In this document: in pieces, positions 14,218 through 20,358 of the stretch | Layout: each line of letters begins with the position of its first letter | Numbering within the stretch: position 1 is the stretch's first letter | NCBI GenBank assembly: GCA_945907245.1 | Contig: CAMDTB010000015.1 | Span: 1 to 53,180, forward strand | DNA length: 53,180 bases | From: Rhizobium sp. Q54 | GTDB lineage: Bacteria; Pseudomonadota; Alphaproteobacteria; SMXS01 | Direction: 5' to 3' | Notes under the pieces: model-generated | What the model saw: the letters and a program-made list of their open reading frames with translations, nothing else | Told to the model about the DNA's origin: nothing | Database searches by the model: none | Position numbers and translations under genes: made by a program

Positions 14218-16044
14218 ATGAAATTGCAGTTCAAGGGCTTGACGACGGTGGCGGGTCTACTCCTGCTGACGGGTGGCGCGGCGATCGCCCAGAACGCGGC
14301 CGCGCCGGCGCAGCAGGTCGCGGCGGCGACACCGCAGGCCGCCGTCCCCCAGTCGTCGCCCGCCAGCGTCGCCGTGCCGGCGGACGTGGAACCCAGGGTA
14401 CTGTCATCGGAGGATGCGTCGGCCTACCGGCAGGTGTTCGAACTGCAAAAGGACGGCCGCTGGGCCGAGGCCGACAAGCACATCCAGAAGATCAAGGACA
14501 CGGCGCTGATGGGGCACGTGCTCTACCAGCGCTACCTGCACCCGACCAAGTACCGCTCGACCTACCACGAGCTGCGCGACTGGATGACGCTGTATGCGGA
14601 CCATCCGGAGGCCGACGAGATCTATGCGCTGGCCATGAAGCGCAAGCCGAAGCGCGACGTGGCCCCGGTTCCTCCGGTGCCGCAGCGATATGTGCCGCCC
14701 GAGGTCTTCGGCGAGGGCGAGGCGCTACCGCCCGAGGAACTCGAGCGCCGCCGTCGGGAATCCGCCGTCCGTTCGCAGATCGCCTCGGCGCTCAAGGACC
14801 GCGAGCCGGAAAAGGCCGAGCGGGCGCTGATGGCGGCCAAGGGCAAGGGCATTTTCCTGCCGGCCGGCTTCGACACCCAGATGTCGCTGATTGCCAAGGG
14901 TTACTACTTCAACCAGAAGTACAAGAAGGCGCTGGACCTTGGCGCCGACGCCGCCGAGCGTGACGACGGCGAGATCGCCGAGGCGGCGTGGGTCGCCGGA
15001 CTGTCGGCCTGGCGCATGCAGAAATACGGCCGCGCCGCAAAGCTGTTCGAGAAATGCGCCCGCGCCCGCGACGCCGGCACCAGTCTGGGCTCGGCCGGGG
15101 CCTACTGGGCCGCCCGAGCCCACCTGAAGGACCGCGAGCCGGAAAAGGCCATGGAGATGCTGAACCTGGCGGTGCAGAACCGCCGCACGTTCTACGGCAT
15201 CCTCGCCGGCCGCCAGCTCGGCATGCCGTTGCCCTATGACTGGTCGGTGCCGCTGCTGACCCAGGCCGATCTGAACGAGGCGCTGGGCAACCCGGGCGTC
15301 CGCCGCGCCGTGGCGCTGTCGCAGGTCGGCGACAAGGGCCAGGCCGACGACGAGATGCGGCTGGTGATCCGCCGCCTCGCCCCCGACGCGCCGCGTGCCG
15401 GGCTGCTGCGGGTCGCCTTCCGGTCGGAATTCATCGGCTCGGCGGTCACCCTGGCGCGCCAGACCGAGCGCAGGGGCGGTCCGCTCATCGAAGCGGCGCT
15501 GTTTCCGCTGCCCAGCTGGCAGCCGCAGGACGGCTTCAAGCTGGACCGGGCACTGCTCTACGCCTTCACCCGCCAGGAATCCAACTTCATGACACGGGTC
15601 GTGAGCTCGGCCGGCGCCCGCGGCCTGATGCAGCTGATGCCGGCGACCGCCGCCTATATCTCCGAGGATCCGAGCCTCAAGGACCGCAACGCCGAGAAGC
15701 TGTTCGACCCGTCCTTCAACATGATGCTCGGGCAGAAATACCTGCTCTACCTGTTCGACAAGGGCGTGACCCAGAGCAATTTGATCCTCGTCGCCGCCTC
15801 CTACAACGCCGGCCCGGGCAACGTGACCAAGTGGCTCGACCGCGACGACTCGATGGGCGACTGGCTGCTGTTCATGGAGTCGATCCCGATTTTCGAGACC
15901 CGCGCCTATGTGGAGCACGTGCTGGAGAATTTGTGGATATACCGCGCCCGCTTCAACCAGCCGTCACCGTCGCTCGACGCCATGGTGGTCGGCGAGGCGC
16001 CGCTGTATTCGCGCAGCGACGCGCGGGAGCTGGCGGCGCAATGA
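14218..16044 (+). CDS. Soluble lytic murein transglycosylase (Slt-like)
   Basis: This periplasmic enzyme cleaves peptidoglycan to anhydromuropeptides. The 608 residues start with a signal peptide (about residues 1-24, ending GGAAIAQ) and an Ala/Pro linker. A long alpha-superhelical domain follows, then a C-terminal SLT domain with the catalytic Glu at about residue 454 (FTRQESNF) and the family motifs [16 protein letters not shown] and [10 protein letters not shown]. The ATG has a weak AGGG upstream. The stop codon overlaps the start of moaB (ATGA), so the two are co-translated although functionally unrelated. Confidence 0.93.
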
Positions 16045-16586
16045 GCATCGACGACAGCAGGCCGTTCGTGCCGGTCGCCATCGCGGTGCTCACCGTGTCG
16101 GACACGCGGACGCTCGAGGACGACAAGTCGGGCCAGACCCTGGTCGACCGGATCGCGGCGGCGGGCCATACGCTGGCGGCGCGCGCCATCGTCACCGATG
16201 ACGTCGAGGCCATCACCCGCCAGCTCCGCGCCTGGATCGCCGATCCCGAGATCGACGTGGTGATCTCCACCGGCGGCACCGGCGTGACCGGCCGCGACGT
16301 GACGCCGGAGGCGTTCGAGCAGGTCTACGAGAAGAAGATCGAGGGCTTCGGCGAGGTGTTCCGCATGCTCAGCTACAAGCTGATCGGCACCTCGACCATC
16401 CAGTCCCGCGCCACCGGCGGCGTGGCCGGCGGCACCTACCTGTTCGCCCTCCCCGGCTCCCCCGGCGCCTGCCGCGACGGCTGGGACGGCATCCTGAAGG
16501 ACCAGCTCGACTACCGCTTCAAGCCCTGCAACTTCGTCGAGCTGATGCCCCGGCTGCAGGAGCATGTGAAGGGGCGAGGGAAGTGA
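16041..16586 (+). CDS. moaB: Molybdenum cofactor biosynthesis protein B
   Basis: MoaB/MogA-type proteins adenylylate molybdopterin before metal insertion. The 181 residues carry [17 protein letters not shown], the loop [19 protein letters not shown], and [17 protein letters not shown] near the C-terminus, all typical of MoaB. The ATG overlaps the transglycosylase stop by the ATGA arrangement, which fixes the start against the longer open frame from 15831. No other molybdopterin gene lies in the window. Confidence 0.93.
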
Positions 16587-16942
16587 TCCTGTTCCGGCCG
16601 ACCGGCCCAAGGGAGCTGGCGCTGATCGAGCAGAGCGGCTTCAAGACGTTTCCACCACGCCTACCCGACCAGCCAATATTCTACCCGGTGTTGAACTTCC
16701 CCTATGCCGAGCAGATCGCCCGCGACTGGAACTCCAAGCGCGAGGACACGGGTTATCGGGGCTACGTCCTGCAGTTCGAGGTCGACGACGATTTTGCCGC
16801 TCGCTACGAGCCTCAGACCGTCGGCGCGATCATGCACCGGGAGCTTTGGGTGCCCGCCGAGGAACTGGACGCATTCAACGCCCGGATTATCGGCGTGATA
16901 CAGGTCGTCGCGACCTATGATCGCGGCGAGCGAACGAGCTAA
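16583..16942 (+). CDS. Conserved hypothetical protein (119 aa)
   Basis: A small soluble protein whose core ([31 protein letters not shown], quoted in part as [16 protein letters not shown]; then [15 protein letters not shown]) resembles a widespread family. Some databases label this family ADP-ribosylation/crystallin J1, a name that I think is a mis-transfer. The start overlaps the moaB stop by 4 bp, so it is part of the slt-moaB operon. Function unknown. Confidence 0.8.
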
Positions 16943-16966
16943 CCTCCACACGCGCCAACCCCTCGT

Positions 16967-17070
16967 TCGTCATCCCGGCGAAGGCCGGGACCCAGTCCCT
17001 CTTACGAAAAGACCGGCGCGAAGCGCGCCGGATTGTCCAGTCTGGGCCCCGGCCTTCGCCGGGGTGACGA
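16967..17070. repeat. Large intergenic palindrome (GTCATCCCGGCGAAG family)
   Basis: The arms TCGTCATCCCGGCGAAGGCC and its near-complement GGCCTTCGCCGGGGTGACGA lie at the two ends. In the middle is a second hairpin, CCGGCGCGAAGCGCGCCGG. This is a REP/BIME-like element of the type scattered in alphaproteobacterial genomes. Standing after an operon, it may also work as a transcription barrier. A related copy is at 39651-39723. Confidence 0.8.
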
Positions 17071-17089
17071 TGATATTACGGAGATAAAT

Positions 17090-17104
17090 GTTCTTGTTTT
17101 GTTC
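17090..17104 (+). promoter_or_regulatory. LexA (SOS) box, GTTC-N7-GTTC
   Basis: GTTC at 17090-17093 and GTTC at 17101-17104 are exactly seven bases apart, which is the alphaproteobacterial LexA operator. It overlaps the likely -35 region (TTGTTT, 17094-17099) of a promoter with -10 TACTAT at 17118-17123. LexA bound here would block the radical SAM gene that starts at 17130. Confidence 0.75.
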
Positions 17105-17129
17105 AAAACGGCCGCACTACTATCGGCCC

Positions 17130-18236
17130 ATGCCCCGCATCTACAAACCACCGCCGACCGTGCACGCCGTCCAGGCGAACGCCCGCCGCGGGCGCGGCGC
17201 CGCCTCGAAATCCGCCGGCCGGTTCGAACGGTTCCAGACCGAAGTGTTCGACGACGGCTGGGACACCATCGACGAGGAGCCGCCGCCGCTGCGCACCACC
17301 GTTCAACCGGACACCGCCCGCAGCGTCATCAGCTACAACCAGTCGCCCGACATCCACTTCGACCGGTCGATCAATCCATACCGGGGCTGCGAGCATGGCT
17401 GCGTCTACTGCTTCGCCCGGCCGACCCATGCCTATCTGGGCCTGTCGCCCGGGCTCGACTTCGAGAGCCGGCTGTTCGCCAAGTTCGATGCGCCCGAACT
17501 GCTGGCGAAGGAGCTCCGCAAGAAGGGCTACCAGCCGGCGATGATCGCGCTGGGCGTCAACACCGACTGCTACCAGCCCATCGAGCGCGAGCATCGGATC
17601 ACCCGCCGCCTGCTCGAGGTACTGAGCGCCTTCAATCATCCGGTGAGCATCATCACCAAGTCGCAGCTCATCCAGCGCGACCTGGACATCCTGTCGGACA
17701 TGGCGCGGCGCCAGCTGGTCATGGCGGCGGTGTCGATCACCTCGCTGGACCGGGACCTGGCGCGGCGCATGGAGCCGCGCGCGGCGACGCCGCCGCGCCG
17801 GCTGGCGACGCTGGAGGCGCTCAACAAGGCCGGCGTGCCGACGACGATCATGACCGCGCCGCTGATTCCCGGCCTCAACGACCACGAGATCGATGCCCTG
17901 CTGCAGGCGGCGCACGACGTGGGCACGCGCCGCGCCGGCTACGTGCTGCTGCGCATGCCGTTCGAGATCAAGGACCTGTTCCGCGACTGGCTGGCCGAGA
18001 ACTTTCCCGACCGGGCGAACAAGGTGATCAACCTGATCCGCTCGACCCGCGGCGGCAAGGACTACGACAGCGAGTTCTTCACCCGCGGCGAGGGCAAGGG
18101 CCCGTATGCCGACCTGATCGGGCAGCGGTTCCGCGCCGCATGCCGGCGGCTGGACATGAACAGGGCGCCGCATCCGGTGGATTTCTCGAAATTTGCACCG
18201 CCGCCCGCGCCGGGCGACCAGTTGCGGTTGTTTTAG
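17130..18236 (+). CDS. PA0069-type radical SAM protein (SPL-like)
   Basis: A radical SAM enzyme of the PA0069 / spore-photoproduct-lyase-like group. The 4Fe-4S motif is CEHGCVYCFARP (Cys-x3-Cys-x2-Cys) after NPYRG, followed by barrel segments (ALGVNTDCYQPIERE, HPVSIITKSQLIQRDLDIL, TIMTAPLIPGLNDHE). The substrate is unknown; DNA photolesions are an inference from the relatives and from the SOS operator. I start at the ATG at 17130 because the in-frame ATG at 17088 lies inside the LexA box region. No ribosome site precedes 17130, and the predicted +1 falls near the ATG, so the mRNA may be leaderless. Confidence 0.9.
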   Translation: MPRIYKPPPTVHAVQANARRGRGAASKSAGRFERFQTEVFDDGWDTIDEEPPPLRTTVQPDTARSVISYNQSPDIHFDRSINPYRGCEHGCVYCFARPTHAYLGLSPGLDFESRLFAKFDAPELLAKELRKKGYQPAMIALGVNTDCYQPIEREHRITRRLLEVLSAFNHPVSIITKSQLIQRDLDILSDMARRQLVMAAVSITSLDRDLARRMEPRAATPPRRLATLEALNKAGVPTTIMTAPLIPGLNDHEIDALLQAAHDVGTRRAGYVLLRMPFEIKDLFRDWLAENFPDRANKVINLIRSTRGGKDYDSEFFTRGEGKGPYADLIGQRFRAACRRLDMNRAPHPVDFSKFAPPPAPGDQLRLF

Positions 18237-18258
18237 GTCCGCCCTCGCCGCTCCTTTC

Positions 18259-18500
18259 ATTGTCACCCCGGACTTGTTCCGGGGTCTGTCGCTCCGCCCG
18301 ACACCGCGTTTGGCTTCATGTCTCAACCCTCCGTGATTCTGCGAGCGAAGCGAAGCAGTCCAGCCGAGCCGGTGAGGGCTGCGTGGCGGAAAGGCTGGAT
18401 CGCCGCGCTTCGCTCGCGAAATCACGGAGAGGCTTGTGGAAACAGGCCACGTACTCCTTACGCGGCAGCACAGACCCCGGAACAAGTCCGGGGTGACAAT
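18259..18500. repeat. Composite nested palindrome (ATTGTCACCCCGG outer, CCGTGATTCTGCGAGCG inner)
   Basis: The outer arms ATTGTCACCCCGGACTTGTT (18259 on) and AACAAGTCCGGGGTGACAAT (to 18500) are perfect complements. Nested inside, at 18331-18428, is a second palindrome with CCGTGATTCTGCGAGCGAAG at one end and CTTCGCTCGCGAAATCACGG at the other. Two different repeat families are therefore stacked in one gap of 317 bp between genes. No gene is present in this gap. Confidence 0.82.
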
Positions 18501-18553
18501 CGAGAGTAGGATGGGCTTGCCCCAATCCTCCCTCCCCGTGCTAAAGAATTCGC

Positions 18554-20358
<1,805 letters not shown>

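Follow-up and report, generated by a model that had tools for sequence, protein, structure and literature searches.

The locus considered here raises the question of whether a short element upstream of a gene for a radical SAM protein is indeed an operator of the SOS repressor LexA and, if so, what the position and evolutionary fate of this operator suggest about the transcript and the encoded enzyme. The window, by which the whole analysed stretch of 53,180 nucleotides is meant, had been read from its letters alone in a first-pass annotation supposing an exact GTTC-N7-GTTC box over the -35 region of a PA0069-type gene, SOS control tying this gene to DNA damage, a possibly leaderless mRNA, and kinship of the product to spore photoproduct lyase (SPL). 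The features needed for the argument are as follows.

17090-17104, + strand: predicted LexA operator (SOS box) GTTCTTGTTTTGTTC, an exact match, assigned by conservation in orthologues and by the operator class shared with lexA, umuDC and dinB of this genome

17094-17099, + strand: -35-like hexamer TTGTTT, read from the sequence, inside the operator

17118-17123, + strand: -10-like hexamer TACTAT, read from the sequence, 18 bp after the -35 hexamer

17130-17132, + strand: start codon and predicted +1, deduced from conserved spacing and suggesting a leaderless mRNA

17130-18236, + strand: gene of a PA0069-family radical SAM protein of 368 aa with cluster residues C87, C91 and C94, assigned by NF033668, PF04055 and fold

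The element GTTCTTGTTTTGTTC matches all eight fixed positions of GTTC-N7-GTTC, exactly as annotated, and this pattern is the consensus stated for the LexA site of Caulobacter (PMC12907096). The supposed overlap with the -35 region is likewise borne out by TTGTTT lying inside the operator, the promoter assignment itself coming from conservation. Within the 53 kb window the pattern occurs once against 1.16 expected and is present at least once in 71 of 100 shuffles, so the window alone proves nothing and the match there is at chance level; the decisive evidence for the box lies beyond the window, in its conservation among orthologues. An imperfect inverted repeat at 16967-17070, whose 29-nt arms are 93% complementary and separated by 46 nt, stops 20 bp short of the SOS box on its upstream side and resembles a small palindromic repeat element.

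Across the same genome (3.34 Mb in 136 contigs) 80 exact GTTC-N7-GTTC sites were found versus 24 for the reversed control pattern, and all 80 were examined in context as loci. Most of them have a GC-rich core, many being probably random; exact boxes with an AT-rich core precede lexA, umuDC, dinB and the gene of a ligase-associated DNA-damage DEXH helicase. The lexA gene at C38:29188 thereby possesses its own operator, GTTCTAGTTTAGTTC (reverse strand), in the upstream region, while recA is preceded by the one-mismatch box GAACAAAACAGGTAC. The boxes before these genes show that an ordinary alphaproteobacterial SOS regulon is present in this genome. Outside this set, the exact box GTTCGTGTTTTGTTC is located between divergent genes for an HTH-S24 peptidase (phage-repressor-like) and a small ORF (L025:1600-1727), possibly representing an SOS-controlled mobile element, and an identical box GTTCCTGTTTTGTTC recurs at L005:1708, L007:837 and L059:701, whose neighbouring genes (one of them DUF2147) have no clear role, making these loci candidates for further SOS members. 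As for dinB of this genus (L300-L303), its ATG is found 39-44 nt past the box, like that of the radical SAM gene, and dinB of most other families is devoid of a box.

Conservation of the operator was assessed in two partly overlapping sets of orthologues. The first comprised 109 genes with enough upstream sequence, gathered from relatives and similarity matches, for which the exact box was sought over at most 400 bp. It is present in 99 of the 109, in a single orientation throughout, the reversed control being found in 4/109; nearly all orthologues deprived of the exact box have a one-mismatch site, and the same loci beyond their upstream regions contain 7 boxes in a total of 614,701 bases. 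The second set was a phylum sample of 49 alphaproteobacteria and 31 representatives of other classes, with expectations derived from shuffled sequence. Here GTTC-N7-GTTC precedes 46 of 49 alphaproteobacterial genes against 0.49 expected, and the E. coli-type CTGT-N8-ACAG none of them (0/49), whereas among the other classes the relation is inverted: CTGT-N8-ACAG is found in 22/31 (0.14 expected), with ATG usually 30-38 nt past the box start, and the alphaproteobacterial box in 0/31. One further non-alphaproteobacterial orthologue has TTAGTAATAATACTAA upstream, which is the Xanthomonas-type LexA site. Thus, in most orthologues from other classes the alphaproteobacterial box gives way to the LexA box proper to their own group, which argues that LexA control is kept through changes in operator sequence, and, as far as can be read from these upstream regions, the predicted control of the PA0069-family gene has outlived changes in LexA specificity. 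Among relatives taken for comparison, lexA itself has a box in 25/30 and dinB in 8/30, so that in constancy as a target the radical SAM gene appears roughly comparable to lexA. Members of the genus retain the box between flanks that have diverged.

The same upstream regions, deduplicated between the two sets to 142 distinct alphaproteobacterial ones for analysis of geometry, display a rigid arrangement of box and start codon. An in-frame ATG is situated 37-41 nt past the box start in 94/142, with 37 regions at 38 nt, 34 at 39 nt and 20 at 40 nt, other 5-nt bins mostly containing from 1 to 9. Alignment of these 94 regions by ATG revealed T at -12 in 64, A at -11 in 65 and T at -7 in 78 of them, along with G at -14 (48), C at -13 (46) and C at -1 (76). 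This pattern corresponds to an extended -10 element TGCTAnnnT placed for +1 on the A of ATG, the TTG of the box falling at -35 with a spacer of 17-18 bp; each position of this TTG is kept in 86-89 of the 99 orthologues. An SD-like motif is found in 14/94 fixed-spacing regions, so that the -10 element in register with the start codon is combined with little sign of ribosome-binding signals, as anticipated for leaderless mRNA. Precedents are available: dRNA-seq in Bradyrhizobium detected an extended -10 TGnTA upstream of leaderless mRNAs (PMC4842269), and such mRNAs are common in Caulobacter, with 375 described (PMC4117421). Compared with leaderless mRNAs known from Caulobacter, Sinorhizobium and Bradyrhizobium, the present case shares the TGnTA-type extended -10 reported for the last of these (PMC4842269) and differs in that its -35 element is merged with a LexA operator and its geometry is preserved in many families. 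Given the fixed geometry, the conserved -10 element and these precedents, we infer that the transcript is likely to be leaderless, with +1 at the ATG 17130, in line with the earlier guess. An alternative in-frame ATG at 17088, overlapping the box, was rejected as the start: the box-to-ATG distance is not constant among close relatives, varying by 1 nt (38-40 nt), which would break the frame from 17088 and thus supports 17130, and the codon also lies upstream of the predicted +1.

Two other readings of these data have to be weighed. The 15-mer might be accidental, with no action of LexA at the gene, and it is true that its count in the window equals the chance expectation and that many GC-rich-core sites of the genome are probably random; accident would nevertheless have to preserve the box in nearly every alphaproteobacterium sampled and exchange it for the appropriate LexA box in the majority of orthologues from other classes, which is scarcely credible, and this explanation was rejected on the basis of conservation in the orthologue sets. 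Hence we consider it highly probable that 17090-17104 is a functional operator and that LexA controls the radical SAM gene. The operator may also be real and the mRNA still carry a 5′ leader, owing either to another promoter further upstream or to +1 upstream of the ATG. This would agree with the third of orthologues (48/142) lacking the fixed ATG spacing, some of them clearly having leaders, with ATGs located 45-91 nt past the box in some cases and SD-like sequences in a few, as well as with a generic sigma-70 consensus scan that called no promoter in the window, so that the promoter assignment rests on conservation. Two thirds of the regions, however, share the 37-41 nt spacing, a -10 element at the proper distance for +1 on the A of ATG, and a C just before it, whereas lexA of the same genomes behaves otherwise, its box being mostly in the opposite orientation and followed by a leader of variable length, with GGAGG in several; a leader is therefore unlikely for the radical SAM gene.

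The assignment of the product to the PA0069 type stands: NF033668 (rSAM_PA0069) matches the product of 17130-18236 with 525 bits at a cut-off of 360, over model positions 1-348 of 348, and Pfam PF04055 also matches. The next closest NCBIfam model, NF038135 of the actinobacterial Rv2578c family, gives 216 bits over residues 62-304, far under its own cut-off of 430 bits. The gene is flanked by moaB, together with a small unmatched ORF, on one side and by rnhB-ccrM on the other (moaB to ccrM, window 16041-20358). Since moaB is found in 40/80 and rnhB in 64/80 relatives' loci, the neighbourhood can be regarded as partly conserved; ccrM is present in 17/80. The 119-aa ORF at 16583-16942, which separates moaB from the radical SAM gene, has no Pfam or NCBIfam match and was not found in these 80 loci of relatives.

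The supposed kinship to SPL turned out to be valid in part. An AlphaFold2 model built from 66 orthologues (mean pLDDT 84.7) was compared with known structures, and the top six Foldseek matches are all SPL (best E 3.6e-9); in VIA-align SPL likewise leads with Z 19.3-19.8 versus 15.5 for the next family. The predicted protein and SPL (PDB 4FHC-4FHG, 4K9R, 4RH0) share the CxxxCxxC radical SAM motif and match in fold with Z 19.8 over 268 residues at 14% identity, the relation being accessible by fold comparison only, as neither phmmer with the single protein nor a profile search of PDB reached SPL. Within the 66 orthologues the motif cysteines C87, C91 and C94 are invariant, and N144, D146, Y148 and Q149 are invariant as well. 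In SPL an additional cysteine is required to donate hydrogen, the catalytic one being C140, and C140A/S mutants are named in titles of the SPL entries in PDB. By conservation among the 66 orthologues, no counterpart of this residue (C140/C141) was detected: outside the cluster no cysteine is invariant, C147 being present in 7/66 and C338 in 28/66. Thus, the kinship holds at the level of fold and fails for the extra catalytic cysteine, the chemistry probably differs from that of SPL, and the PA0069 family is better not classified as SPL, even though it may act on DNA in a similar fashion. The two also differ in that the PA0069-type gene is under predicted LexA control and SPL is tied to spores.

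What the enzyme acts upon is the point at which the alternatives come closest. The gene could be SOS-controlled while its product, rather than acting on DNA, modifies some RNA, protein or metabolite that the damage response requires. No reaction was found for any PA0069-family member, the NCBIfam model NF033668 being a hypothetical equivalog; pyruvate formate-lyase activase, lipoyl synthase and NifB follow SPL in the fold comparison at Z about 15; and the extra cysteine of SPL has no conserved counterpart, all of which leaves a substrate other than DNA quite conceivable. On the opposite side, SPL occupies the first six rows in both fold comparisons (Z 19-20 versus 15.5), and most genes controlled by LexA serve DNA repair. 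On balance, an enzyme of DNA lesions is a somewhat favoured identity for the radical SAM product, suggested by regulation and predicted fold rather than by chemistry. A broader statement can be made with more assurance: since nearly all Pseudomonadota relatives keep the SOS switch, with a DNA sequence differing by group, the enzyme very probably serves survival of DNA damage.

As to prior knowledge, the literature was searched for PA0069 in combination with LexA and for Rv2578c in combination with DNA damage, and no paper was found in the collection searched. Cirz in 2006 reportedly listed PA0069 in the P. aeruginosa LexA regulon, which carries no weight as evidence here. Sanchez-Alberola and colleagues (2012) predicted that splB is under LexA control in both alpha- and betaproteobacteria and noted that this control is kept across divergent motifs (PMC3323433). 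Their alphaproteobacterial regulon, including the predicted splB (COG1533), is similar to the present case in the operator, in its position over the promoter and in the SplB-like radical SAM target (PMC3323433), and their splB is likely to be the NF033668 family. The annotated link between the gene and DNA damage is thus supported by conservation of the operator in orthologues, whose lack had been named in that annotation as half of a refuting outcome, and is not new: the gene is a new instance of a connection predicted in 2012, the SOS link being known in outline. That study treats splB as a photolyase shared by alpha- and betaproteobacteria and not seen in the gammaproteobacteria studied there (PMC3323433), whereas in our sample the non-alphaproteobacterial genes have mostly CTGT-N8-ACAG, with one of Xanthomonas type, and the mRNA of the present gene is apparently leaderless. 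Beyond the 2012 prediction, the link now includes most non-alphaproteobacteria of the phylum sample, the promoter has a fixed and probably leaderless arrangement, and the SPL cysteine is missing; what seems to be new is the conservation of the leaderless geometry and the occurrence of the link under three LexA motifs.

Proceeding from the sequence-derived elements (the operator and its conservation across motif changes, promoter and start geometry, family and predicted fold), we infer LexA binding, induction by damage, the start of transcription and a role in DNA repair in the following form. In the undamaged cell LexA seated on 17090-17104 would cover the -35 element and block the start by RNA polymerase. 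Upon DNA damage RecA filaments would stimulate self-cleavage of LexA and free the operator, and transcription would begin at the A of ATG 17130, or within 1-2 nt of it, producing a leaderless mRNA. Its product would be a radical SAM enzyme with the SPL fold, for which repair or processing of a DNA lesion appears the likeliest role. In its full extent we advance the proposal tentatively, as one that could well prove wrong in some part: the PA0069 family would be a core LexA-controlled enzyme of DNA-lesion repair across Pseudomonadota, with chemistry unlike that of SPL, lacking a conserved hydrogen-donor cysteine, and in most Alphaproteobacteria its expression would depend on a promoter of some 40 bp that merges the operator with the -35, the -10 and the start codon, giving a leaderless SOS transcript.

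That LexA control is retained through shifts in the sequence recognised by LexA suggests strong selection for switching this gene on by DNA damage, and the leaderless geometry suggests that a Shine-Dalgarno site could be dispensable for synthesis of the protein. In this respect the PA0069 family appears to be one of the best candidates for an SOS repair activity not yet described among non-spore-forming bacteria.
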